This document shows, in pieces, positions 1 through 17,920 of a stretch of DNA of 17,936 bases. The translations under genes and the position numbers were made by a program. The stretch spans positions 1 through 17,936 of the forward strand of contig JALPMN010000553.1 in NCBI GenBank assembly GCA_024243835.1, in the 5' to 3' direction. The notes below the pieces were generated by a model. That model was not told the origin of the DNA and searched no databases. It saw only the letters and a list, made by a program, of their open reading frames with translations. Every line of letters begins with the position of its first letter. The first letter of the stretch is position 1. The stretch is from Enteropsectra breve. Taxonomy: Eukaryota; Microsporidia.

Positions 1-369
1 CTCAGGAATTAAACTTGTTCTTTTAAAGGAATAATTGAATGCACTGATGCATCTGTCAATCGTTGACTTAGATACAGTGAGTCCAAAATCAGCCTCTACT
101 TTTTCAGATAAGGACTTTAAAGATAGGGCACAGTCTGCGTCAATCCAACTTCTGATCGCAGTGCGCATTTCATCAGTCAGCTTTCATTCTCTCACGCCAC
201 CGCGTGGTGATGCAATCACTCTACCTTCGCTATTGAATACTCGGATTACTTCCGAGACTGTGGTACGCCTGATTCCCATGATATTTGATATCTGTGAAGC
301 AATATGACCATTGAGGTAAAGGTTCACAATTTGCTGCCTCTCTTCATTAGTCAAAGTTCTATTCACCAT
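1..369 (-). pseudogene. IS630/Tc1-mariner-type transposase, broken 5' part
   Basis: The minus strand from the ATG at 369 encodes an N-terminal helix-turn-helix of the kind that binds transposon ends (LTNEERQQIVNLYLNG, then RRTTVSEVIRVF about 25 residues later). A basic RGG linker follows. An in-frame TGA at 184-186 stops this 61-residue ORF, but the same frame stays open to the window edge and encodes a second helix-turn-helix-like block (KLTDEMRTAIRSWI, then GLTVSKSTIDRCI). This paired-HTH layout, with the linker leading directly into the second domain, is typical of IS630/Tc1-mariner transposases (family knowledge). The DDE/DDD catalytic domain would lie beyond the left edge. One nonsense codon and no visible frameshift suggest a fairly young dead copy. 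The exact subfamily cannot be assigned from this fragment. Confidence 0.75.
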
Positions 370-887: not shown

Positions 888-1107
888 TGCTATAAGAGGT
901 AGACATTATTATTCAAAAAAGAATAATGCTAATATAATTCCTTTAAAGCCATGTTTGAGTGCGGAATATCGCAATATGCTGCATTAAAGATAAGTGTTTG
1001 AAGCGCAAAATTGGGGAAAGCATATATAATTCCTTCAATAAATTAAACCTAAAACAAAGCATTTATTTTTAGAATATTATTCACATAAATATTTAATTGA
1101 AATAGGC

Positions 1108-1332
1108 TCATTCTTCAGCCTTAAGCATGTCGCAAATATTCTCTCTCACCATGCATGTGATATATCCATTAGACCGCGGACATCCTTCAGAGAAAAGTTT
1201 TTTGCACATCGCTACCAGCGCCTTTACTTTTTCATCGTCTACATAGGCCGCGCTTCCAACTGAAATGAGTATAGCTAGGCACAGCACACATAAAAACATG
1301 AGTTTAATAGTCATTGAGCATCCAGTCAACAT
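1108..1332 (-). CDS. Small secreted four-cysteine protein, copy 1
   Basis: This 74-residue protein has a clear signal peptide: a hydrophobic core at about residues 11-25, ending in a small-residue stretch near GSAA at 26-29. That leaves a mature chain of about 45 residues. The mature part has four cysteines (43, 51, 60, 67) with spacing C-x7-C-x8-C-x6-C, and ends in an acidic, probably helical tail (CDMLKAEE). The start at 1332 is favoured because a CCCC run lies four bases upstream of the ATG (GAGCCCCTTATATG). A later Met at residue 7 is possible. Two further genes on the same strand (1406-1624 and 2771-2995) share the layout. I do not recognise the family. A secreted effector or surface peptide is an inference from size, signal peptide and cysteines. 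Confidence 0.7.
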   Translation of the reverse strand: MLTGCSMTIKLMFLCVLCLAILISVGSAAYVDDEKVKALVAMCKKLFSEGCPRSNGYITCMVRENICDMLKAEE

Positions 1333-1336
1333 ATAA

Positions 1337-1340
1337 GGGG
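1337..1340 (-). promoter_or_regulatory. CCCC start-proximal motif of small secreted gene 1
   Basis: On the minus strand the bases before the ATG read GAGCCCCTTAT. CCC or GGG runs just upstream of start codons are a described microsporidian expression signal. The second small gene has a similar but weaker form (GAGCCTTA before its ATG). Confidence 0.5.
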
Positions 1341-1405
1341 CTCAATTGACTTCCACCTAAAAATTTTATATGTGATCATTGAAAAATTCATATTTATCAT
1401 TAATT

Positions 1406-1624
1406 TTAATTAACTTCTTGTTTCAAAGCATCGCATACCAACTTCTCTAGTGAACATGATATAATTGAAGTGCAACTCACTGTACTTCCTTCTCGGCACC
1501 ATTCAATAAACTTTCGTAATTTAGTCGCGCTTATGCGGGCAGCAGGTGAAGCTAGTGCTGTAAAAGCTGTTGCTGCTAAACATATGAGAAATAATATCAT
1601 TATCGTCTTGTGCAAAGCACTCAT
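1406..1624 (-). CDS. Small secreted four-cysteine protein, copy 2
   Basis: This 72-residue protein starts with a signal peptide (hydrophobic core at about residues 8-24, likely cleavage after ALA at 24-26), leaving about 46 mature residues. Cysteines at 43, 51, 57 and 64 give C-x7-C-x5-C-x6-C, matching copy 3 exactly and copy 1 except for three extra residues in the middle loop. The C-terminal block EKLVCDAL resembles ENICDML of copy 1. The gene lies 73 bp from copy 1 on the same strand, which suggests tandem duplication. The leader reads GAGCCTTA immediately before the ATG, close to that of copy 1. The overlapping plus-strand ORF has no signal peptide and is judged a shadow. Family and function are unrecognised. 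Confidence 0.7.
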   Translation of the reverse strand: MSALHKTIMILFLICLAATAFTALASPAARISATKLRKFIEWCREGSTVSCTSIISCSLEKLVCDALKQEVN

Positions 1625-2770
1625 TAAGGCTCTGAATAATAATTGTTTTATTCATATCAACGATCAAATTAAAATTAATGAAAATTAAATTTCTGGGCAA
1701 AATATCATACATCACCACATGTTAATCTTTATACTCATTTTTATGCAAATATAGCTTTATTCGATCATCTTTAAACATACACGAAAAACAAAGATGGAAT
1801 TTTTCAATGATTTACTGAATCTAAGGAAAAAAATCTATAAAATCAAGGAAAAATTTCTTGTTATCATTATTTAATTTGATTGTAATTTATTCTACATGGC
1901 TTGCGTTTTATGCACATAAAATACAATTACATACTAAGATTAATGTAAAAGCCTATTCACAATTAAAGGATGAACCAAGCAACAAGCATTTTCCGATAAA
2001 AAAGATCCAGTAAAGTAAGATATAAAAATAAAAAAGTTGTACGGTCCGTTATTAAAGCCGCTTATCAAAGCAAATTTAAGTTTAAATGTTCCTAACAAAC
2101 ATTATTGAACGACAAAAAGCTGTATTAATTGCTATCTGAGAATTAAATTGCTTATTTAACTAATAATCCTTGAACTACGGTTTCAGAATCAATATATGCA
2201 TCTAATTAAAGCATGGCTATATACACACCGATAAAGTACATTTAAAAATATGTATCATTTATGCAGAAGCATTAGCTAAAATGTATTTTTCAGTTTAAAT
2301 CTTTGATATTGTGCTGAACCAAAATTCTGTGAGTTTAAGTGAATGTGAATCGTTTTCTTTAAATGGTCATTATCTATAAAATGATGCTATCGACACACAG
2401 CTTGATCAATTGCTCTGAGTAAATTTTGAGAAACAATAAAATATTGTTTATTACAGGCATCTTACTACGCCTTATTTTCCTATCAAAATTCGAGTTTAAG
2501 GCGATAAATCTACGTTTCTTTGCCGTTACATTTAATAATCATTCCATCCGTTCTCGCAAAGCTGCGTTAGTTTTCTTATAACGGACTGTTGCAGGAAGCA
2601 TTAAAATAAAAGTGCTGGCTGCAAAAGAATGGCCATAAAAGCCAAATAATTGACGTGTACAATTCGGTAATATTTTAAAATAAATGCATTATGCTCTTAC
2701 TTGAATATTCATGACTGCCAGTTTTGAAAAAAAATAAACGGAATGTAAAAGGATTTAATTATTTGCTCTA
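1625..2770. other. Gene-poor AT-rich interval
   Basis: About 1.15 kb without a supportable ORF, RNA gene or strong repeat. A short element resembling GTCCGTTAT occurs at about 2044 and in inverted form at about 2577-2586, but it is too short to interpret. The region presumably includes the leader of the small secreted gene ending at 1624 and the 3' side of the one at 2771. Confidence 0.6.
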
Positions 2771-2995
2771 TCAATAGTTTGTCTCCATATTCTCACGAAG
2801 ATTGCTGCACCAAATTTTCTTTTCCCAGCACTCTTGAACCTCACGGCATTTTGTAGATAAATAATGCTTGCAGTTGCCCGAGTCATACACTCTCTTGGCA
2901 GCTTCATAGACCAAGCCGTTGCTGCATACACAGAGTGCGAGCAGAGATATCAATAATATAGCCATAACTAGCATATTTATTGATATGCTAGACAT
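2771..2995 (-). CDS. Small secreted four-cysteine protein, copy 3
   Basis: This 74-residue protein has a strongly hydrophobic signal peptide (residues 8-23, likely cleavage near CVCS at 22-25) and a mature part of about 48 residues. Cysteines at 42, 50, 56 and 63 give C-x7-C-x5-C-x6-C, the same as copy 2. The block EKKIWCSNL at 58-66 lines up with EKLVCDAL of copy 2. Other residues differ widely, so only the cysteine frame and a helical pattern are conserved, as expected for a fast-evolving secreted family. It lies 1.15 kb from the other two on the same strand. Its leader (GATCCATG) has only a weak C run. The family is not recognised, and the paralogy rests on the shared cysteine spacing. Confidence 0.65.
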   Translation of the reverse strand: MSSISINMLVMAILLISLLALCVCSNGLVYEAAKRVYDSGNCKHYLSTKCREVQECWEKKIWCSNLRENMETNY

Positions 2996-4388
2996 GGATC
3001 AGTTATTTAAACGATTTTTATAGTTGAAATTAAATTTTATTAACGGCTCAAATTCTGGCTGCAAACTTCGGAAACAAATGTTGTTACACTATTTGTAAGA
3101 TTCTTTATTGCATTCCAGTACCATATTTATAGGGCTTCTTGTGATATATTCCTGTGCAATACTGGTAGCAACAAATTTTATAAAAATTTTAATTTGTGAT
3201 AAAATATCATTAGCATCTGATATATGCACATATTTACTGTGCATTATCTCATTAGACCCCGCTTCTGACGCTTAATAGAGATACAATGGGTTTTATTAAG
3301 ACTACGCAAAGCTTTTTTTATTCTGCAAATGAATTTAACTTACTATTTCACACTTCTGCGGCTAAAACTACATATATCATGCAAATTGCATAAAATATCC
3401 TGTCTTTGCAATCTGAAACTGAAAATTTGTAGATGTTTTAACAGTATTATTCGGCGCACACCCTTCTATAAAGCAGAGGATGGATTATTTTTTGAATTAA
3501 AATGTACAGCACTTCTTCACTATTCTATCTCTTTTCTGGGGAGCTTAATGACTGCTTTGGCATACAATATGCGTCTGTTTACAGTATGAGAGCTTTATTT
3601 ACAGTGCATCTAAATACGTGCGAAGTAAAATATGCCTGCTGTTCTTAGATGATATTTCGAGGGACAAGGCTCTTGTGAGAGTTGGAGCACCATGATTTAT
3701 CACAAGAATTTGTTTTCATTACAAATAATAACGAATGGTTTATATATTTTTATAGTTTACACAACTCGTTAGAACTTAATCTGTCAATAAGTTATGTGGG
3801 TTTTATTTTTAGATTTTGAGACCGTATATGGACATTTGTAATTATTTTAAGAGTGTTTATACAGTGCGTGGAATGTAATACTATTTGTTGAAAGGAGACC
3901 GATGAAAACGAAAGGGCAGTTTAATTAAATATTTATATGGCCCTTATTATAAACTCATTTGACTTTATACTTTTATTCGTCGAATATCTAAATATTGTTT
4001 TTTTGGTGCGGAGAAAGGCTGCATGGCCGTCCCAGGACGAATTTTAAGGCCAAATGTTTCTTTGTTCAGCAGAAAAATGCTTATAACATTGCGAGATCTT
4101 TCGCTTTTTATTTGAGTTTTTATGCCAACATCATTATAGGCAATAATTTCCCCCACATTCTTCATGTGACAGCTTGTTTCTTCTTTCCATAGTATGATAG
4201 CCCTGATAAAACTTTAAATTTGTGGCAAGAAAGTTAATTTAGCCATTTTTTGAGGGGGTGTCCTGTTATTATGCGGGGCTGTATAAGACCATCTTAATGA
4301 TATTTCCCATATATTAGCACCCCTTATTCATTTCACTGCCTACTGTTAAACCCCTTTTAAAAATTAAATTGATTGAAAATTTTTGCCG
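2996..4388. other. Gene-poor interval with only weak ORFs
   Basis: About 1.4 kb without a well-supported gene. A plus-strand frame at 3329-3589 encodes an 86-residue cysteine-rich basic sequence but has no signal peptide and no C/G start motif. A minus-strand frame ending at 3965 is open for about 80 codons but resembles nothing I recognise. The sequence just before 4389 should hold the promoter of the plus-strand gene. Confidence 0.5.
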
Positions 4389-4889: not shown

Positions 4890-6374
4890 ATGGATGACAT
4901 GCAAGAACTCATAGTTGTAAAAGCATTTGATTTTACAAGTGCAATAGATACTATCCTGAATAAGATCACTACAAAAGATGCATCCGATGAACAGAAATGC
5001 CAATATTTCAATATGCTAGTCCAGCTGGATAAGCTTCTCGTTAGTATATTTAATAATACTTCGACTTTACTTGAGGAGACAAAAAAGAAAATTAATGAAA
5101 CAACTGACTCTCGGGAGGAGAAGATAGAAAAATTAAAACTATCAATTCTCTACAATAAAAATGAATGCATTAAAGACTTAATATTTAGAATATTAATTAC
5201 AATAATAAGTAATTATAGACAAACGATGGATAAATATGCTGAAAACTATAGATGGTCATTAGAGCCTTCAGATAACTTATATGAAGAGTTTAGGCAGATA
5301 GCAACGGATAGTTTTTTTTCATCCTCCTATAGAGATTTTTATGGAGTGCAGGAGCAAAAGTTTAAAGCATTATATGGAAAAAGTAATACTGAGCAGATGC
5401 ATGAATGGAATGAATCCGTGAAGCAATATATTTCTGATTCAGCTAACGCTAGAGCAAAAGAAAGATATGCTTTTAATGAAAATAAATTCAGCACTGGAGA
5501 TGATAGACAACATGCTGCTAGAATAAAAACAACCCATTTAGAGCCTACAAAAACAAGCGAAAGTGTTGTCATCGATGTGTGTGACAATCCTCCTAAAAAT
5601 AAACATAAACGCGACGAAGTGTTCAATAGCACAGATGATGAAACAAAACAGAGAAAGCCTCAAAAAATAAGTACAAAAAATAAGTACAACTTTGTCAATG
5701 GTAGTTTTGGGACTGGCTATATTGTTACTAGCCCTTTAAATAACAGTCACTTAAATCAAAGTCACTTAAATAACACTCATTTAAATCAGAGTCATTTATA
5801 CCACAGCCCTAGAGTTGAGGGTCCTAAAGCTGAGGGTCTTAAAATGAGTGACGAAAATACTGCGAATGGTGGTTTCAAAGCTGGCCGTTTAGATGAAGGT
5901 AAAAGCACTAAACAAGGTATTGAGGCTCAAAGTATCGAAAACCATAGGTCAGAGGAAGATTCTTTTGAGACTAGTATTATTGAGGAACATCTGGATAAAA
6001 AAGATCAAAACATAAAGCATGATAGAAAGGTTGAAGATTTTAGCGAAGATAGTAGCAAAGAAAATATTCTTGGCAGCGATGCCACATGTGAAGGTGAATT
6101 GAGTGATGGTTCTTCTAAAACAAATACTCCGAAAGGACAAGGAACTCCTGATACTCCAAAAGGACAAGGAACTCCTGATACTCCAAAAGGAAAAGGAACT
6201 CCTGATAATGAGAAAGGACAAGGAACTCCTGATAATGAGAAAGGACAAGGAACTCCTGATAATGAGAAGGATAATACTGTCGAGAGTAAAAACTACTATA
6301 AAGAATGTGCAGCGGTTGCTATTGCAGCAATTGTGATATGTGCTGCTATCTTTGCTTTTTTCAAAGCGCAATGA
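4890..6374 (+). CDS. Repeat-containing protein with C-terminal membrane segment
   Basis: This 494-residue ORF has a helical N-terminal region (about residues 5-200, with heptad-like Leu/Ile spacing near 45-110). A long charged, probably disordered middle follows, containing basic clusters (KNKHKRD, KQRKPQK). It has two repeat tracts: five five-residue units of LNxSH type at about 283-307, and five nine-residue units containing GQGTPD at about 413-457. One hydrophobic segment of about 20 residues (472-492) lies three residues from the C-terminus, so the protein is either tail-anchored or, if joined to the upstream secreted ORF, a single-pass surface protein or one with a GPI-type tail. The ATG at 4890 lacks any CCC/GGG motif, and the frame is open back to the TAA at 4836. 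Both facts favour one interrupted gene. The gene converges with the M16-like gene, 224 bp away. The family is not recognised. Confidence 0.65.
   Translation: MDDMQELIVVKAFDFTSAIDTILNKITTKDASDEQKCQYFNMLVQLDKLLVSIFNNTSTLLEETKKKINETTDSREEKIEKLKLSILYNKNECIKDLIFRILITIISNYRQTMDKYAENYRWSLEPSDNLYEEFRQIATDSFFSSSYRDFYGVQEQKFKALYGKSNTEQMHEWNESVKQYISDSANARAKERYAFNENKFSTGDDRQHAARIKTTHLEPTKTSESVVIDVCDNPPKNKHKRDEVFNSTDDETKQRKPQKISTKNKYNFVNGSFGTGYIVTSPLNNSHLNQSHLNNTHLNQSHLYHSPRVEGPKAEGLKMSDENTANGGFKAGRLDEGKSTKQGIEAQSIENHRSEEDSFETSIIEEHLDKKDQNIKHDRKVEDFSEDSSKENILGSDATCEGELSDGSSKTNTPKGQGTPDTPKGQGTPDTPKGKGTPDNEKGQGTPDNEKGQGTPDNEKDNTVESKNYYKECAAVAIAAIVICAAIFAFFKAQ
5736..5810 (+). repeat. Five 15-bp repeats encoding LNxSH units
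   Basis: In-frame tandem units of 15 bp encode LNNSH, LNQSH, LNNTH, LNQSH and a degenerate LYHSP. N/Q and S/T alternate from unit to unit, as if a 30-bp pair had been duplicated. The tract lies in the disordered middle of the 494-residue protein. Confidence 0.8.
6126..6260 (+). repeat. Five 27-bp repeats encoding GQGTPD-type nonapeptides
   Basis: Five near-identical 27-bp units encode nine residues each. The first three begin TPKG and the last two NEKG, and all continue with [QK]GTPD. A partial sixth unit follows. Near identity at the DNA level indicates recent expansion. The repeat has no stops in another plus frame or in one antisense frame, which produces long shadow ORFs there. Confidence 0.85.
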
Positions 6375-6598: not shown

Positions 6599-7387
6599 TT
6601 AGTCAAACGCAGTTACAGATAGCGATGCATCAGAAACAACATAGCAATGATCGTCTTTCTGTAGGATATGCGTAATAAAGCTGTCTAACAGAGCGATAAT
6701 CCCATTAATTTCAGTTCCAGCAATCTTAGGATCTAAGGTAATAAGAGAGGTGATATGCTCGTGGCTAGAAACTGTTTCTTTGCATTCTTGCAGAAATCCA
6801 CTAATTGCATTATTAATCTCTACAGAGCTCTTGTAGCTCTGAACCCCAAAGAGTAAATGCCCGCTGCTCAGTTCGCTGTTTGTGCTGACATACATAATCC
6901 CATTGTCTCCAAGAAGCTCATTGCATATAAAAACGTTAAGAAAACTATCTCTGAAAAAGCGCACAAAATATTTGGCTCCAGCGATATGCTCCCTTGCAAG
7001 TTGTGTAATGCGAACAATACAGCAAGTTGAAGAGTTTAAATACTGCACCTGGTGTATCTTTTTTGCTGACAAAAGGCTCATCTTATTTTCCTGTTTGTTC
7101 TTCTCGGTCGCAGTGTTCTGCAGCTTGAAAATATTAATTTGCTTTTCGTACATGCTAAGTATTTTATGGACATGCGAGATGTTGCGGCTTTCCATTAGTA
7201 CCCGTACGCCCGTGTGGATATAAACATCCATTGCCTCCAGCGTATGAATAGATTTCACATTGTCAAATTCGTTTTTCTGAAGATTCATATTAGGACTGTA
7301 GATAGACTTGATTAAATTCTCTAATGTGCCAGAGCTATACATCTCATTAGAAAGAAGATTTGCAAAATACTGCTTTGCATATTCCAT
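6599..7387 (-). CDS. C-terminal part of insulinase-like (M16) protein
   Basis: This 262-residue ORF carries the last M16 domain of an insulin-degrading-enzyme-type protein. The block around residues 155-200 (CNELLGDNGIMYVST, then LLFGVQSYKSSVE) lines up with the family's C-terminal signature, where a conserved R-x-x-E-Q-L-G-Y is followed by a strand with an invariant QS. Here the Arg/Gln/Tyr positions are changed. It is in the same frame as the ORF ending at 7391 and separated from it by one TAG and one GAA codon. It lacks a signal peptide, and its ATG has no CCC/GGG motif. The simplest reading is that it is not an independent gene but the 3' end of a gene of about 1,004 codons, the normal length for this protease type. 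It could be expressed only if the TAG is read through, is an assembly error, or if translation restarts at 7387. Confidence 0.65.
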   Translation of the reverse strand: MEYAKQYFANLLSNEMYSSGTLENLIKSIYSPNMNLQKNEFDNVKSIHTLEAMDVYIHTGVRVLMESRNISHVHKILSMYEKQINIFKLQNTATEKNKQENKMSLLSAKKIHQVQYLNSSTCCIVRITQLAREHIAGAKYFVRFFRDSFLNVFICNELLGDNGIMYVSTNSELSSGHLLFGVQSYKSSVEINNAISGFLQECKETVSSHEHITSLITLDPKIAGTEINGIIALLDSFITHILQKDDHCYVVSDASLSVTAFD

Positions 7388-7390
7388 TTC

Positions 7391-9613
7391 CTAGTTGTAA
7401 ATATTTGAGCTCCCACATTCTCTTACTGAATGAAATTTATAGACAAGAATTGTGCAAATACTCGTGATATCCGCCTCAGCAGCCCTAATTCGTATTTCTG
7501 CCGTATTCAGATCCATGCGAAGCGACATCTCCAGAAAGTTCGCGCTTATCCTGCTCAAATACTGGTTTTCGAATCGCGTGTATGCAATAAATACGGCGAA
7601 CATTGTTGCTATTTTTGCGCTTTCCTCCTGAATCTCATCAAAATGCATTATAAACTTTATTTCTGGTGTTTCCGTGCTATTCGGGATTCTTATAAACTCG
7701 AGAGTTACACTGTTGTTGATTGAAGCTCTAAGGCACAGTGAGTCTTTGGTTACTTTTAACAGGTACTTCTTGTTATCATAGGAAGCAAGGAGCGAGTCCA
7801 TGTTTCGCTGATGACGTGCATTCGGAAGGCTCTCAAGGAACGTGATAATTTGCTTGCAAGTTTCTGCATGTGAGAATTTAATTTGTGGACTGCCAACCGT
7901 TTTAGGTAACAGCTCGATCTCGTGGGTTTCCGTGTTAAAAAAGCAGTGAAAATACAGCAAAACCGCTTTTTCTATTCTGGAAACATCCCACTCGTCCAGC
8001 GGACGTTTTTCCCTTGCATCTAGAAATACTTTTTGTCCCAGATGGTTGCACGGTTTCAGTGTTGGGCTGGTGCTGTAGTGCATCACCACCCAGCTGTTGC
8101 TCCAGCAAAGATTATCAAATACCTCACACACGAATGAATCTGTGATATCATTCTGCATCGGGTTTCCATTTATCAGGCACCCAATATTATGCACACTCTT
8201 CTCAACATCTGTGTTTTCAAAATAATGGGCGGTGCTGCTAAAAATATCGTGTAAAATACTTGGCGTGTATGAGGAATCCCTGCTGGTGGAGAATCTGCCC
8301 AAGCTCTTAGCCGCATTCTGATATGCCAGTTTGCAGCAGGAGTTTTTAAAGCCCCTAAGATTCCTCATAACAGCGCGCTTCAGCTGGATGAAAAGCGCCT
8401 GAAAAAGATACATTATTTTTTCAGGGCTTGTGTGAAAGCCATCTGGCCCCATGCTGATTTTAAGCCACAGCAGTGCGGGGCTTCTTTTAGATGATTCTAT
8501 TCCCATGGAAAAGTCATAGGCATATTTAAACTTCTTCAGGATATGGAGAATTGAGTCATGCTGGCTTTTCATTGATTTGTACTTTAATGATTTTTCCATA
8601 AAGATAGACTCTAAAAGAGAATACAAGCCAAGTTGTTCGCTGCTGTGTGCCTCGGGCAGCGGAATAACAATGAAGAGAATCTTTGGAGAAAGCACATCGA
8701 GCACATACAGATGGCTGTTGAAAAGCACAATTCTATTATGGAATTCTTCTCTCAGATCCCCTTTGAGAGTAACGGTATTTGGGAACTGAAAGGGATTTTC
8801 AGACGTATCCATATTTTCAGAGGATGAGCTCTTGCTGGGGAGATACTCGAAATAGCATTTGATTATCTCACATACTTCATAAGAATTCAGTGGGGTTATG
8901 ACCGTGATTGTGGTGTTCTCACGTGTAAAAAGCTTATTTCTATAGGCGCACAGATCTTTGTGTGACATATTTTTAAGCGTTTCTTGAGAGCCAATGAAGC
9001 GGTGCTGAAGATCGCTGCCGTCTTTTGCAAGAGACGGTAGCAGAATGCCCAGTAGCATCTGCGTATTGATCAGATTCTGGGTGCGCATCAGTTTGCAATT
9101 AAAAAGCGCTTTCCGGTGCTCAAGCTCATTTTCTGGAAAATTAAAGTCACAAAGGTGTTCAGCAAAGAGTCTCAGTATTTTTTCGAAATTATGGGTATCA
9201 CTGATAAACGAGCATTGTGTGCTGCCATTAGTGACGCAATATCTCATGTCGGAGTCGGTGGGTGTCAATAGAAAATTCAGGAGATTTTTATTCTCGCCTC
9301 TGGGGGTAGTTCTCATTATCTGCTCGGCGAAGAAGTGTGCCAGTCCAGGGAATTCATGCGGCGCGTCACGCATCCCCACACTGGTTGTTGCCGAAAAATA
9401 CGTTTTTGTGATTTTTGAATGCGTAAGAATGTTTACTCTGAGGCCTTCTATCGATGTTTTGGACATGTTGATTTTTGGTTCTTCATCACTTACTTTCGTA
9501 TCACTATTTACGTAGTTATGATCATGTAAAAATGTTTCATTTGCGCTCATGCATGATTTCACAAAGTAGTACACAAAGTGATACATCCTGAGGATGGCTT
9601 GATATTTCCACAT
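7391..9613 (-). CDS. Insulinase-like (M16) protein, catalytic site degraded
   Basis: The product is 740 residues from the first ATG at 9613; the frame upstream has only a TTG. CCC directly abuts this ATG, supporting the start. A weak hydrophobic leader at about residues 5-25 suggests secretion. The N-terminal M16 domain is recognisable: PGLAHF at 89-94 matches the block that contains the zinc motif HxxEH in active enzymes. Here it reads H93-F-F-A96-E97, so the catalytic Glu and second zinc His are both absent. The third ligand region remains (ELEHRK, Glu165). Later blocks match the second and third insulinase domains, for example LWLKISMGPDGFHTSPEKI. The frame ends at a TAG (7391-7393), and the missing fourth domain follows in the same frame. 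It is probably a non-catalytic homologue or a decaying gene. It lies between the repeat membrane protein and the large secreted paralogs. Confidence 0.8.
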   Translation of the reverse strand: MWKYQAILRMYHFVYYFVKSCMSANETFLHDHNYVNSDTKVSDEEPKINMSKTSIEGLRVNILTHSKITKTYFSATTSVGMRDAPHEFPGLAHFFAEQIMRTTPRGENKNLLNFLLTPTDSDMRYCVTNGSTQCSFISDTHNFEKILRLFAEHLCDFNFPENELEHRKALFNCKLMRTQNLINTQMLLGILLPSLAKDGSDLQHRFIGSQETLKNMSHKDLCAYRNKLFTRENTTITVITPLNSYEVCEIIKCYFEYLPSKSSSSENMDTSENPFQFPNTVTLKGDLREEFHNRIVLFNSHLYVLDVLSPKILFIVIPLPEAHSSEQLGLYSLLESIFMEKSLKYKSMKSQHDSILHILKKFKYAYDFSMGIESSKRSPALLWLKISMGPDGFHTSPEKIMYLFQALFIQLKRAVMRNLRGFKNSCCKLAYQNAAKSLGRFSTSRDSSYTPSILHDIFSSTAHYFENTDVEKSVHNIGCLINGNPMQNDITDSFVCEVFDNLCWSNSWVVMHYSTSPTLKPCNHLGQKVFLDAREKRPLDEWDVSRIEKAVLLYFHCFFNTETHEIELLPKTVGSPQIKFSHAETCKQIITFLESLPNARHQRNMDSLLASYDNKKYLLKVTKDSLCLRASINNSVTLEFIRIPNSTETPEIKFIMHFDEIQEESAKIATMFAVFIAYTRFENQYLSRISANFLEMSLRMDLNTAEIRIRAAEADITSICTILVYKFHSVRECGSSNIYN

Positions 9614-10310: not shown

Positions 10311-12581
10311 CTATAAATGTATTTTTTCAAATGCAGATTCATTATTCTCATCATAGAACACACATTCGATTCCTAGGGCTTTATCGTCTTCAATTTTATC
10401 ATCATAGACTTTCTCATAGTATTCTTTAAATCTTCTTGCCAAATCTTCATTCCCATTTTTTTCAGAGCTTCCTTGTCTTAGTTTTAGCTTAAGAGACACA
10501 TCATTTTGATTTTCAACCACATAGTCCTTAAAAAGAAAGCAAATATCAGGCAGTATGCACGCTTTAAACCCATGGTATTTGTCATGATCAAGCAAAGAAG
10601 CGGCATCTAAATTAAGGATTAAAGAGGAGTAGTTATTTCTAAACTGATTTAGAGAGACTGCCAACTCCTGCATGTCATAAGGCTGGAATAAAATAAGTTC
10701 TATTGTTTTAATTGATGAAATACTAGCTGAATCAAGCACTGTAATGTTTTTTACAAAATCCAATCCAGTATCGTGACATGTGATTAAACATCTGATTATG
10801 CAGTATCTAAGGACCTCTTCGGGTGATATTTCTTTAAGTGGTAAGACTGATGAATAGTTGTCTGCTCTTGGCTTGAATAGAGGATTGTTACAGATTCTGC
10901 GGCTGAATTTATTTTCCACGTAATAAAGTGTTCCTATCTCAACCTGCTGCTCAAACTTCACTTTGCAGGCCAGAGATTCTGCAATGAAATGATGCTTTAT
11001 CCTTTCAGTGTATTTTTCTTCATCCTCATAAAGCTTCGTGTGAAACCCGTATATTGACATATAAATACTTGCCTGCTCTATTGTGAACTTTCCGCGAAGT
11101 TTGCAAAAGAGCAGCAATGCACGCAGATGGCCGATGAAATGCGCGATACTGTTTTTTAGAGGACAATCCTCATCAAAAAGCCGGTGAATAACCAAAAAAT
11201 CAACGCTTCCGTAGTAGCCGCGCACCCCAAACTTATTTAGTGCTGTATTCTTAAGCAAGGGAACTAATTCGTCAGGAAATCTATTAAATCCATCGATAAA
11301 GAGTGAGTTTAGCCCACTAAGACTTTTTATTGCCGCTCTAACTGCAAGCACAAGAAGCCGATCCATTGTCTTGTCAGGCTCGTCTATTGATGGAATTTGG
11401 GCGAATTGCTCAAGCATCACGCTGTGAATATAAACCTCTGAAATCTCATTGAAAATACTCATAAAGGAAACATAGCGGTGGAATGACTGGACATAGTAGT
11501 CTTCAAGGTACTCAGGCACTGGGGCTGTAAGGAAGAATTCGGTGATAAAGAAGGGCAGGAGTATTTCCAGTCTCCTGTTCACGGTTGTTTTATTTATCGT
11601 ATTAAGCTCTGCAATGACATCGAGTTTTGAGGAAAGTTTTGTGGGAGTGCATTCATGCTGAAGAATTATAACCTTACTGTTTTGCTCATGAAGCAAGCCG
11701 TACATAAAATATTTAGAGCCAGATCCCAGGTATAGATGGCAAACATATCCTTGCTCGATTTCTAAATGCAGGAGGCTCATGAAGTGTGCAAGCGGCTCTA
11801 TTTTTTGTATTAAAGCCGTTATTCTCGCCTTTTTTGCATGGCTGCAGTTTATATCCGGTGTATCTCTATCCTCTGCATCTCTATCCGGTGTAAAATTTTC
11901 CAGTATATTCTTATCTGGCATTTTTTCCAAGACAGGCAAAAAAGAACGATAGTCTTCGACCTGCGTCTGCAAGAGGTACACAAAGTTGATGCAAAATAAA
12001 TTGATAGTTTTTATCCGCAAATGAAATGGTTTGCTATTTCGCTCCAAGAAAATATCAACCTCTTTGTCAGGGCTTATTTCTAGATAATCAAAGGCTTCTA
12101 AAATTTTCTCAATCTTTTCACTATTTAGAGAAATCTCTATTTCATTGCACCAGTTTGATAGTAACTGAAATATATCATGGACAGTTTCAAGATCAAAGGG
12201 AATGCTCAGGTCTAATATTTCATCAGGCGCAATTTTCTCGCCAAATAAATCATAGCAGCCGGAGCTCTGCAGTTTTTCTGTGATAAGATTCTGATGTCTT
12301 TCGAATGATTCGCTTGTGCAGCATTCTGTTTCTCGCAAGGCTTTCTCATAAAGATCATTCATTTTGAACAGAGAATCATAATACCTGTCACGACCTTTTC
12401 CGTACACTAGTGCATTCTCCAGAGGTTTTGACTTCAAAATATCTCGAAAATCAACCTCTCTGAATGACTCTTGTGTTCCGACTCTGATCCTGAATTGCTC
12501 TGCAAAGCACCGCGCGTGTCTGGACGCCTCTATTTTGGAAAATGCCCCACTTATCAGGAACAAAGCTACAGGGGTTTTCAT
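10311..12581 (-). CDS. Large secreted paralog A, 756 residues
   Basis: The ATG at 12581 is preceded directly by GGCCC and opens a signal peptide (VALFLISGAF at 5-14, cleavage near residue 20). Just after it comes the family's N-terminal motif, FAEQFRIRVGT ending in REVDFRDI (26-48). Further shared blocks are HLRIKTINLFCINFVYLL (187-204), YLGSGSKYFMY (284-294) with VIILQH, and the strongest block at about 419-490 (LFIDGFNRFP, NKFGVRGYYGSVDF, LKNSIAHFIGHLRALL). The latter spaces leucines in a leucine-rich-repeat-like way (inference). The protein ends in KIHL, like KTVHL of its minus-strand neighbour. There is no second transmembrane segment, so it is probably secreted. The paralogs lie at 12926-15187 and 15974-17920. 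I do not recognise a named family. A role at the parasite-host interface is inferred only from secretion and duplication. Confidence 0.8.
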   Translation of the reverse strand: MKTPVALFLISGAFSKIEASRHARCFAEQFRIRVGTQESFREVDFRDILKSKPLENALVYGKGRDRYYDSLFKMNDLYEKALRETECCTSESFERHQNLITEKLQSSGCYDLFGEKIAPDEILDLSIPFDLETVHDIFQLLSNWCNEIEISLNSEKIEKILEAFDYLEISPDKEVDIFLERNSKPFHLRIKTINLFCINFVYLLQTQVEDYRSFLPVLEKMPDKNILENFTPDRDAEDRDTPDINCSHAKKARITALIQKIEPLAHFMSLLHLEIEQGYVCHLYLGSGSKYFMYGLLHEQNSKVIILQHECTPTKLSSKLDVIAELNTINKTTVNRRLEILLPFFITEFFLTAPVPEYLEDYYVQSFHRYVSFMSIFNEISEVYIHSVMLEQFAQIPSIDEPDKTMDRLLVLAVRAAIKSLSGLNSLFIDGFNRFPDELVPLLKNTALNKFGVRGYYGSVDFLVIHRLFDEDCPLKNSIAHFIGHLRALLLFCKLRGKFTIEQASIYMSIYGFHTKLYEDEEKYTERIKHHFIAESLACKVKFEQQVEIGTLYYVENKFSRRICNNPLFKPRADNYSSVLPLKEISPEEVLRYCIIRCLITCHDTGLDFVKNITVLDSASISSIKTIELILFQPYDMQELAVSLNQFRNNYSSLILNLDAASLLDHDKYHGFKACILPDICFLFKDYVVENQNDVSLKLKLRQGSSEKNGNEDLARRFKEYYEKVYDDKIEDDKALGIECVFYDENNESAFEKIHL

Positions 12582-12925: not shown

Positions 12926-15187
12926 TTATAAATGCACTGTTTTTAGTGCGTCTCTTGTCTTATTTCTATAAGATACGGTTTTAACGCTGAACTTTTTAAA
13001 CATTTTAAAAGTATAATTTTCTTCTTTATATCTTTTTATGCAATATTCAATGAGCATTTTTCTAAGCTTTTCAGGATCAAAATTAAAGTTTATATTTTTT
13101 CTAGCAATCACTTCGATAGATAGTTCGTTGGAACTTTTAGGAATTATCCAATGCATAATGGCAGCTATGTCTTGACCGATTGAGCTAGCTATACAATACT
13201 GTTTATACTCGTTTTTGCTCAGAATATCGTTGATATCGTATTTTAATATCAGACATGAGTCGTTACACATAAAACGCTTGAGGTATCTTATGAAGGTATT
13301 AAAATTGATGTTTGCAGTCTTTTCATTCATAATAACTTCAAGTGTCTTAATAATTGAGTTATATCCTAGCTCCAGTCCGCCCATAGAGTTAATGTATTGG
13401 GCACCATTATCTGCATAGCTCATAAGTACACGGCTAAATGTCAGCGCTCTAAATATTTCCTGAGGCGGTATTTTTTCCAAATATGGATGCCCCTCCATGG
13501 ACGCATCTTGAGGCCTGTGTTTACATCTGTGTACGGGCTGATATTTACTTTCTGGATTATTAGGCTCAATCATGAACACTGGTTCCAAATACTCGAGAGT
13601 ACCAAGCTCTATTTTTTTGCTAAGAATCACTTCGCCGTTGAGTGAACCACCCGCAAAGTATTGCTTTATTTGCTCTTCATATTTTTTCTCATCGTCATAT
13701 AAGTCTAACCCAGGTTCTCTTATTAAATTAGAGACTTTTGCGCTTGTAATCTGCTTATCAGGAAGAAAGTTTGATATGAACTTCAGTGCCCGGCTTTGTC
13801 CCAAAAAGCATCGAATGCTCTTCTTAAGTGCGCATTCATCTTTTAAAATACGATACATAACGATAAAATCGACTTTGCTGCAGCAGCCCTGAACTCCGAA
13901 TGAATTCAGCTTTGTTTTTCTTAGTAACTCAAATAGGGGCTCAGGAAATTTATTAAATCCGTCAATGAGCAGAGAGCTGAGTCCAGGAGAGGTTCTAATG
14001 GCTGTATCAACTATTTCATCAAGAACCCGTTCCATAAATCTATTTAGATCGCCTTTTGTTGGCAGTGCGTTGAAGTACGGCATTGCACTGTGAATGTACA
14101 CTTCCGTTATTTTTCCGAGCACCTGCATGAAACAGAGGTAGGTAGTAAGTGCTTCGTGAAAATCTTTGGGAATTCCTTCAAAAAGCGGAGCATGCTGAAA
14201 ATAAGATTGTTCACCGAGAGGCAGGAAAATAGTGAGTCTTCTATTTGTAAATGTATCGCCGATAGTGTTAAGCTCTTCAAGGATGTTTACTCTAACTGCA
14301 TTCAATCTTTCAATTTCTTCTTTATTCAGCAAAAGGATTACCTTGGAGTTTACGTCATGGTGCATTTCGTATACAAATTGCCTAATTCCACTGCCCACAG
14401 ATATACTGCTCACAGAGTTGTCTTCCATTTGAATCTGAAGCAACTTAATATAGTAACGTAGAGGAAGAATTATGTCACATAACCAGTCTATGACGTTTCT
14501 AAGTGCATTGTTTTGAGGTTTTTCATCAATAGTCTGATATATCACCAAGAGATTGTTTATCTTCATAAGGTAGACAAAATTGATGCAAAAAAGACTGATT
14601 ATATTTATCCTGAGATGCAGCGGTTTCTTATCTTTCTTCAAGAAAAGATCAACTTCTTTTTTAGTGTCAAGTCCCAAATATTTGAAGGCTGGCAGAATTT
14701 TTTGAATCTTTACAGTGTCCAACTTAATCCTTAGCTCCGTGCACCATTCTGATGTCATTTTAAAAATATCACAGACAATTTCATACTCAAGGGGAATCAC
14801 TATATCTAATATTCTATCGGTCTCTCCATCTTTTAGAAAGTCTTTATAAACTGTGCTCTGCTGTAATTTGCTTTTCATGAGCTCTGCATGGCTTTCAAAG
14901 GTATCTTCTATGCTACATGCGATCTCCGTCAGCGCTTCTTCGTGACTTTCGCTCATCATTAAAAGACGTTCGAACGGCGAATACGAGAGTCTATTCTGTG
15001 CGCTTAGCTCAAGATAGAGCTTCTTCAATTCCACAGTTTTATAAATGTCTCTCATGTCAAACGTTCCCGCTTTGTCGCTAGTTGTCATTTTAACCTGAAA
15101 TTCGCGTGCTAAGATTCTTTGCTGTCTATTTGCCGTCAGTATAGAAAATGCTTTGCACACAAGCAGTAGGAGCATGCATCCTTCCAT
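12926..15187 (-). CDS. Large secreted paralog B, 753 residues
   Basis: The first ATG in the frame is at 15187; the open frame continues 15 codons further upstream but only to a TTG, and those residues are basic rather than signal-like. From 15187 the protein begins with a good signal peptide (CMLLLLVCKAFSIL at 4-17), and a GGGG run lies five bases before the ATG. Blocks shared with paralog A are MRDI (45-48), PLHLRINIISLFCINFVYL (189-207), VGSGIRQFVY (264-273) with SKVILL, RRLTIFLP (316-323), and the best-conserved region at 399-470 (LLIDGFNKFP, LNSFGVQG, VDFIVMYR, LKKSI). The N-terminal motif is the most diverged of the three. It ends in KTVHL, like KIHL of A. Cysteines and charged residues differ widely, indicating an old duplication or fast change. 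Function unknown. Confidence 0.8.
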   Translation of the reverse strand: MEGCMLLLLVCKAFSILTANRQQRILAREFQVKMTTSDKAGTFDMRDIYKTVELKKLYLELSAQNRLSYSPFERLLMMSESHEEALTEIACSIEDTFESHAELMKSKLQQSTVYKDFLKDGETDRILDIVIPLEYEIVCDIFKMTSEWCTELRIKLDTVKIQKILPAFKYLGLDTKKEVDLFLKKDKKPLHLRINIISLFCINFVYLMKINNLLVIYQTIDEKPQNNALRNVIDWLCDIILPLRYYIKLLQIQMEDNSVSSISVGSGIRQFVYEMHHDVNSKVILLLNKEEIERLNAVRVNILEELNTIGDTFTNRRLTIFLPLGEQSYFQHAPLFEGIPKDFHEALTTYLCFMQVLGKITEVYIHSAMPYFNALPTKGDLNRFMERVLDEIVDTAIRTSPGLSSLLIDGFNKFPEPLFELLRKTKLNSFGVQGCCSKVDFIVMYRILKDECALKKSIRCFLGQSRALKFISNFLPDKQITSAKVSNLIREPGLDLYDDEKKYEEQIKQYFAGGSLNGEVILSKKIELGTLEYLEPVFMIEPNNPESKYQPVHRCKHRPQDASMEGHPYLEKIPPQEIFRALTFSRVLMSYADNGAQYINSMGGLELGYNSIIKTLEVIMNEKTANINFNTFIRYLKRFMCNDSCLILKYDINDILSKNEYKQYCIASSIGQDIAAIMHWIIPKSSNELSIEVIARKNINFNFDPEKLRKMLIEYCIKRYKEENYTFKMFKKFSVKTVSYRNKTRDALKTVHL

Positions 15188-15973: not shown

Positions 15974-17920
15974 ATGAAGGGGATAACTTTTTTGGCAATT
16001 GCAAGCAGAGTATTTTGCAGATTAGATGCGAGAGAGCACAGGCGCCCATTCGAAAAGCAATTTGCAATCAAAGTAGGAACGGGTGATCAATGCCGAGAAA
16101 TTGATTTTAGGGATCTTTCTATGTCACAGTCGTTTAGTTCTATGCATAATTTTCCCAGATCACACGATGAACAAAATACGTCTGCCTTAGAGTGCTTAGA
16201 AAAGATGAATGAAGCATATGAGGATGCCTTGAGCAAAGTACAAAAATGTGCCTGTGACACTTTTAAGAAATTCAATGAGGCTGTAGTAAAACAACTTAAA
16301 GACGATGGGCAATATTCTTTATTTGAAAAAGACTGGGAATCTACTGAGTTTAATATTTCCACTGCAGATTCACCGCCCGAAATCCTCCACGCTGTTTTTC
16401 GTTTGATGTCGGGATGGTGCGAAAAATTAGACATTGCATTTGACTTGGAAAGTGCGGCAAAAATATTACGTGCATATGAGATTCTTGAAATATCGGGAGA
16501 AAAAGAAATTGATGTTTTTTTGATGAATGATGACAAACCGCATCATCTAAGAGTAAAACAGAATAGTCTTTTTTGCATTAACTTTGTGTATCTTCTCCAG
16601 AGAAATGAAGAACTTTATAATTCATGCTATAATCTGATTAGATTCACAGACAGAGAATATTTGACAAAGGATGGACATATTCAGATTAAACGCGACTACA
16701 ATATGGGTTTACTTGGAGATTGCAGCTCGCTGCCTCTTCTTCCTGTCTATGTAAACCTTTTGAGGATCGAAAAGGAAAATAAATGCGTTGAAAGCCTCTT
16801 TTTAGGAACAGGATCTAACTATTTCGTTTACAAAATGCAACCTGAAGAAAATTGCCTGGTGATACGTTTACAGCATAAAAATGATGAAGATAGTGTTTAC
16901 AAAAGACTAAATCTTATTGATATGCTTTGCACATCAAATAAGAGTGCAATAAACATAAGACTAGAAGTACTAGCACCATTTTTCGATACATCAGTTAAAA
17001 GAGAAAAGAGGTGGCGCTTGAAAATGCCTAGTGACTTCAAGCAAATATTCTATAGCAATCTTGATTTTATGGCGATTCCGCTTGGAACAACAGAAGTTTA
17101 CATCAATAACATGATGTCTGTTACACTTCCAGACGAAATGCTTCCAGGGGATGAATGTAGGTATGCATCTGTTGATGATGCAGGTGCTTATCTTGTTTTA
17201 ACTGTCAAGACAGCATTAAGTACAATTTCAGAACTGAGCGGATTGCTTATTCGAGGATTTAATCGGTTCCCGGAACAATTAGTTCCGCTTTTACAAAAGA
17301 CCAATTTGAGAAAGTTTGGGGCGATGAGTTTTTATGGTTGTGTTGATTATATAGTTATGAGTAAGCTTTTTAGAGAAGAAAGTCTACTTAAAAATAGCAT
17401 CAGACATTTTGTGGGGCACTATCGTGCTTTGTACCTCCTTTCTTATTTCTATAAAAATTGGAAAATTAAGGAGGCGACGCTTACTTGCGAACTGTTTGGA
17501 ATCGAAATGGAGTATTTTACGGATGAAAAGCAAGAGTGGGAGCGGATAAAAGCCCATTTCGAAAACACAGAACCACATCGAGACAATAAAGTGAAAATTT
17601 GGGATCGGATAGTAATAGATACTGTTTACCATCTGGATTCTGCCTTTTTAGCATTGCCCTTGCAAAAAAGCCTCTTCAGAAATCCATGTGAAGATCGCGT
17701 AGTTCAAAATAATAGATTTGATGTAGTCTTGCCGGAGGAAGTTCTTGAAAGATTTGAAATTGCTCACTTAGTTGTTAAAAACAAATCCAACTATCACTTT
17801 GAATTCGAAGAATATACAGTCCGTCGCAAAAGTTTAGCCCACCCCCTTTTTGCGGGTTTTGGGGGCAAATATTTCATTAAAAACTGTATCAAGCACATAT
17901 TTCTAGCGCATAAATCCTAG
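15974..17920 (+). CDS. Large secreted paralog C, truncated at the C-terminus
   Basis: The 648-residue product opens with a signal peptide (ITFLAIASRVFC at 4-15) and then the family N-terminal motif FEKQFAIKVGT with REIDFRDL (26-48), very close to paralog A. It shares HHLRVKQNSLFCINFVYLLQ (190-209), LGTGSNYFVY (277-286) and the main block at 416-488 (LLIRGFNRFP, LRKFG, YGCVDYIVM, LKNSIRHFVGHYRALYLL). Similarity runs to about residue 600 (VLPEEVLERF against ISPEEVLRYC of A). After that the sequence looks unrelated and stops about 110 residues short of A and B, without the final HL motif. The divergence point lies near C and G homopolymer runs (about 17841-17867), so a frameshift or a recombination junction is plausible. 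The window ends 16 bp after the stop. It is divergently transcribed from paralog B. Confidence 0.75.
   Translation: MKGITFLAIASRVFCRLDAREHRRPFEKQFAIKVGTGDQCREIDFRDLSMSQSFSSMHNFPRSHDEQNTSALECLEKMNEAYEDALSKVQKCACDTFKKFNEAVVKQLKDDGQYSLFEKDWESTEFNISTADSPPEILHAVFRLMSGWCEKLDIAFDLESAAKILRAYEILEISGEKEIDVFLMNDDKPHHLRVKQNSLFCINFVYLLQRNEELYNSCYNLIRFTDREYLTKDGHIQIKRDYNMGLLGDCSSLPLLPVYVNLLRIEKENKCVESLFLGTGSNYFVYKMQPEENCLVIRLQHKNDEDSVYKRLNLIDMLCTSNKSAINIRLEVLAPFFDTSVKREKRWRLKMPSDFKQIFYSNLDFMAIPLGTTEVYINNMMSVTLPDEMLPGDECRYASVDDAGAYLVLTVKTALSTISELSGLLIRGFNRFPEQLVPLLQKTNLRKFGAMSFYGCVDYIVMSKLFREESLLKNSIRHFVGHYRALYLLSYFYKNWKIKEATLTCELFGIEMEYFTDEKQEWERIKAHFENTEPHRDNKVKIWDRIVIDTVYHLDSAFLALPLQKSLFRNPCEDRVVQNNRFDVVLPEEVLERFEIAHLVVKNKSNYHFEFEEYTVRRKSLAHPLFAGFGGKYFIKNCIKHIFLAHKS

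Follow-up and report, generated by a model that had tools for sequence, protein, structure and literature searches.

A family of small four-cysteine peptides with hydrophobic leaders in the microsporidian Enteropsectra breve

Large lineage-specific families of secreted proteins of unknown function are common in microsporidia, as described in two studies (PMC5423893, PMC10393165); in Nematocida, enzymatic tagging is reported to have identified large families that are exposed to the host (PMC5423893). Such families consist of paralogues that are secreted as judged by sequence, partly clustered, devoid of a known domain and represented by at least ten members per genome. The peptides described here resemble them in these respects and differ in being only 68–81 aa long and in having a fixed four-cysteine frame. 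According to the methods of PMC10393165, proteins shorter than 100 aa were kept only when they had a UniRef90 or Pfam match, and a family of such small peptides could therefore be dropped there.

The window, that is the whole stretch of DNA analyzed here (17,936 nucleotides), is an entire contig, C153, of the 3,958,979-base, 155-contig genome. An earlier note, made from the letters alone, had pointed to three minus-strand ORFs of 72–74 residues with signal peptides and four cysteines each. The ORF list confirmed their positions and lengths, a recount gave the same cysteine spacings, and a 12-residue hydrophobicity window showed a hydrophobic N-terminus in each:

1108–1332, minus strand: peptide A, 74 aa, hydrophobic N-terminus followed by four cysteines spaced x7-x8-x6
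1406–1624, minus strand: peptide B, 72 aa, four cysteines spaced x7-x5-x6
2771–2995, minus strand: peptide C, 74 aa, four cysteines spaced x7-x5-x6

The start of ORF A is uncertain because a further in-frame ATG lies at codon 7. The parasite origin assumed in the note agrees with the SSU rRNA, whose best match is the Rfam microsporidia model (882 bits), five overlapping related families scoring lower; since that model also matches nine of the 14 control genomes of bacteria and archaea, the evidence lies in the competition among Rfam models.

Searches of the 3.96 Mb genome with single members retrieved at least 22 four-cysteine peptide loci on 10 contigs, among which those of C103 and C89 and those of C87 and C19 are near copies; this count is a lower bound because distant members, when used as queries, retrieve few others. 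Additional copies with the same spacing, the test proposed by the note itself, were thus found. At the DNA level, positions 1108–2995 matched four other places in the genome: C89 has three of them and C103 the fourth. C89 carries the A, B and C genes in the same order and on the same strand as in the window, and represents a diverged copy of the trio, while C103 carries genes C and B, with no gene A within the duplicated block. The homology of the window to C89 is a patchwork extending from about 1030 to 3288:

1030–1399, minus strand: gene A with flanks, 71% identity to C89:6015–6388
1389–2120, minus strand: gene B with upstream DNA, 65% identity to C89:7460–8165
2773–3288, minus strand: gene C with upstream DNA, 69% identity to C89:8569–9071

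C103 and C89 are in turn 91.5% identical to each other over 3.1 kb or more (pieces L006 6885–10000 and L007 3086–6212); the shared block ends before gene A and is either a segmental duplication of recent date or a difference between haplotypes. In protein searches, single members found relatives of type A on C89, C108, C87 and C19 and further members on C47 and C145; relatives of peptide C were found on C89, C103, C34 and C32. On C145, positions 18404–24838 hold a tandem array of eight members on one strand; in the two DNA pieces that cover C145:15000–33000, six of them lie in the first and one in the second, and the eighth (23844–24056) lies across the boundary. The clustering seen in the window trio recurs in the C89 copy and in the C145 array. 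Inside this array, two short minus-strand ORFs (L036 3785–3985 and 8347–8508) have hydrophobic leaders and only two cysteines; they are possibly decayed family members.

The frame C-x(6-8)-C-x(5,6,8)-C-x6-C fits all 22 members, and its final x6 is invariant. Five types can be told apart by their spacing:

Type A: x7-x8-x6
Type B: x7-x5-x6 or x7-x6-x6, the latter in the C89 and C103 copies of peptide B
Type C: x7-x5-x6
Type D: x8-x5-x6
Type E (the C145 array): x6-x5-x6

Sequence searches, with E-values calculated for one genome, linked peptide C to the C34 member (E 7e-4) and to the C32 member (E 0.001–0.003), and the C34 member to E1 (E 4e-4); the link between A and B is weak (E 0.013–0.014). 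Profiles of A+B (8 members) and of C+D+E (14 members), taken from 15 residues before the first cysteine onward, aligned in hhalign with a score of 22.7 and a probability of 67%. This score was reached by none of 210 column shuffles that kept the cysteines (maximum 19.0 in 40 runs and 21.4 in 170 runs). Because comparisons of single types with one another are weak (probability 0.2–32%), the case for common ancestry rests on the pooled groups, and we consider a shared origin of all types, as judged from these alignments, to be likely but not proven. With A+B and C+D+E joined by the profile score only, the 22 loci form a large gene family in the sense of at least ten homologous members per genome, as defined in PMC5423893 and PMC10393165.

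The remainder of the window contains the following features:

184–369, minus strand, within 1–369: 61-aa ORF with a helix-turn-helix domain, left over from a transposase-like gene (matches to HTH_28 at E 3.3e-7 and, below the cut-off, to the Sleeping Beauty HTH at E 4.4e-5)
721–888: about eight head-to-tail 21-base units, the minus strand of which holds an open, serine-rich 65-aa frame
4890–6374, plus strand: protein of 494 aa with a hydrophobic C-terminal segment and, near its end, short tandem repeats; tail-anchored in appearance by eye, with no Pfam match above the cut-off
6599–9613, minus strand: two ORFs (740 and 262 aa, same frame, with a single TAG between them) for an M16-like protease (Pfam Peptidase_M16_C, E 6.7e-5)
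10311–12581, 12926–15187 and 15974–17920: three members (about 650–775 aa) of a large secreted family
17811–17917, plus strand: last ~35 residues of the protein at 15974–17920, recurring alone on several contigs at up to 97% identity

The split M16-like ORFs represent a broken gene, a sequencing error or two products, and the 3′ end of the gene at 15974–17920 may run into a repeated element. The large secreted family is leucine-rich-repeat-like by eye and has no Pfam name. It gave 53 match rows on 36 of the 155 contigs, some of these rows being short fragments, and matches were present on 6 of the 10 contigs with four-cysteine peptides (P 0.011, with contig size uncontrolled and some short-fragment rows included). 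On C145 its matches are weak and lie at least 20 kb from the array. The neighbors of the array include genes that by eye resemble those for ABCE1 and a cation-efflux protein; a gene that by eye resembles one for a ribosomal protein lies near the C32 copy. This indicates that the four-cysteine family is not confined to contigs rich in transposons or in the large secreted family.

Selection was estimated from ten pairs of family copies within the genome. In nine of them dS was finite, and dN/dS was below 1 in all nine; the A_C108/A_C87 pair was saturated. Between the window and C89, dN/dS was 0.57 for gene A (pN/pS bootstrap 95% range 0.40–1.07), 0.34 for gene B (0.30–0.80) and 0.29 for gene C (0.24–0.68). 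Genes B and C are thus under purifying selection, and the range for gene A means that this gene alone is not distinguishable from neutral. Recent near-copy pairs gave 0.10–0.16 with wide ranges, and the C32/C47 pair gave 0.44. Comparison of pN in the leader and in the mature part, again between the window and C89, gave 0.20 versus 0.25 for gene A, 0.26 versus 0.21 for gene B and 0.31 versus 0.13 for gene C, so that only A leans, slightly, to a faster mature part. The peptides had been called fast-diverging in the earlier note; the paralogues do stand far apart, but the dN/dS values of the copy pairs (0.10–0.57) carry no sign of positive selection or of an arms race.

Could the ORFs have arisen by chance? 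Our control, 76,102 bases of fetched DNA, is a test of specificity and not of genome-wide frequency because this DNA was sampled for containing family members. It held 76 distinct ORFs of 60–100 aa, of which 26 had a hydrophobic N-terminus; 21 of these 26 showed the frame, and all 21 were family members (the 22nd member, spanning two pieces, lies outside this count). None of the 55 non-family ORFs carried the frame, unlike the refuting outcome named in the note, random ORFs with the same spacing and signal peptides at similar frequency. The frame appeared in 26 of 15,200 shuffled mature parts (0.17%) and in 201 of 44,000 shuffles with family composition (0.46%). For the genome, we estimate some 2,900 other ORFs in this size range, about five of which would show the frame by chance and about 0.4 of which would also have a hydrophobic N-terminus. 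A few chance occurrences are thus to be expected; however, the loci are similar to one another in sequence, dN/dS stays below 1 in every computable pair, gene order has been duplicated, and all 22 members have a hydrophobic leader in the 12-residue window. Chance is refuted for the family as a whole, and its probability is negligible. Microsporidian genes are described as having a CCC- or GGG-like start signal near the ATG (PMC2803860). Of 21 family genes, 14 have such a signal, exact or one base off, no more than 15 bp from the ATG, compared to 34% of the 2,950 ATGs that make up the background (binomial P 0.003); with near copies left out, the count is 12 of 18 (P 0.005). The signal is exact in five of the 21 (P 0.06, marginal against background), one base off in nine more and absent from seven, including gene C of the window. 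As the note had stated, no named family was recognized by Pfam or by PDB sequence: no Pfam family scored above the cut-off for A, B or C, and none recurred among 20 members. A database of 5.8 billion proteins gave no match to the peptides; the neighboring M16 protease found only itself there, so the database seems to be without close relatives and this absence says little about other microsporidia. The nearest candidate was SALO, the sand fly salivary anticomplement protein, in whose C-terminus an odorant-binding Pfam domain is reported (PMC5344329). SALO is longer than the peptides here (about 11 kDa), and its C-terminal C-x8-C-x8-C-x6-C resembles peptide A. A profile of 10 sequences matched PDB 9ekd and 9eke (E 0.004) and 5kx4 (E 0.014) over the four-cysteine stretch, but the 20-member profile lost these matches at E ≤10, its top match being a TMPRSS2 construct (E 0.013), and a profile of type A alone, which has the closest spacing, gave no match at E 10. 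Nor did the odorant-binding Pfam family (PF01395) match any of the 20 members at E 1. Membership in the insect odorant-binding or SALO group is therefore rejected and, as an explanation, very improbable.

Structure was modeled with AlphaFold2 using alignments of the three window sequences alone. The model of A shows helices at residues 5–21 and 29–44 (mean pLDDT 78.7), with the first cysteine in helix 1, the second just past it, and the third and fourth seven apart in helix 2. In the best of five models of C, helices span residues 2–13, 16–22 and 29–48 (mean pLDDT 79.0); two of the five were poor (53.7 and 44.6), and pTM was about 0.5 for both A and C. The helices suggested in the note are thus seen in both models with moderate confidence, and the predicted antiparallel helical hairpin would most likely have Cys1–Cys4 and Cys2–Cys3 bonds. 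Cystine-stabilized helical hairpins include the twin-CX9C (CHCH) proteins, the alpha-hairpinins and the kappa-type scorpion toxins. If the models and the predicted pairing are right, the peptides would share with them two antiparallel helices and two disulfides; they differ from them in having a hydrophobic secretory leader and in their spacing, x9 or x3 in those proteins and x6-8 and x6 here. Membership among the twin-CX9C proteins, which requires two C-x9-C motifs, is excluded by the spacing in all 22 members.

We give a probability of about one half to the reading that this is an expanded secreted family whose members enter the ER, fold as hairpins and act at the host interface with differing partners. 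The genes would be expressed, a signal peptide would direct each product into the ER and then be removed, and the mature part of about 40–55 residues would oxidize and fold as described. The mature peptide would be released or displayed at the parasite–host interface, where paralogues with different surfaces may bind different host partners. On this analysis, and by analogy with the tagged large families of Nematocida (PMC5423893), the most likely role would be that of secreted peptides acting on host molecules outside the parasite cell; such a role agrees with the lineage-specific secreted families known from microsporidia.

Given purifying selection, and no contrast between conserved leader and variable mature part, the serious rival is that the same peptides are structural components of the parasite itself, packed or cross-linked by disulfides at the plasma membrane surface, in the spore wall or in the polar tube, and have no host targets. 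Purifying selection suits a structural role, the mature part of C is its more conserved half, and a spore wall protein of Antonospora locustae with four conserved cysteines is reported (PMC5697631). On the other hand, structural components would not usually be encoded by an eight-member tandem array or by paralogues of such low identity, and we regard this explanation as less likely than the first. Unlikely, and clearly more so, is a function as secreted antimicrobial peptides directed at other microbes in the host tissue. Antimicrobial peptides are generally small, with a leader and disulfides, and the family agrees with that build in its size, its leader and its predicted pair of disulfides; yet net charge is mostly not strongly positive, lying within −2 to +3 in 19 of 22 members with extremes of −7 and +7.

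Taken together, these peptides form a genuine family, known in its general kind and unusual in its build, of which we found no description in the literature searched. They have fewer than 82 residues and a fixed cysteine frame, and a published annotation filter could discard proteins of this length (PMC10393165). Their size allows direct synthesis, folding and testing, and the frame provides a precise pattern with which to search other microsporidian genomes. We tentatively suggest, as a possibility only, that the family is a venom-like arsenal of disulfide-pinned hairpins delivered to the host, one scaffold bearing many surfaces, and that 100-aa filters may hide equivalents throughout the phylum.
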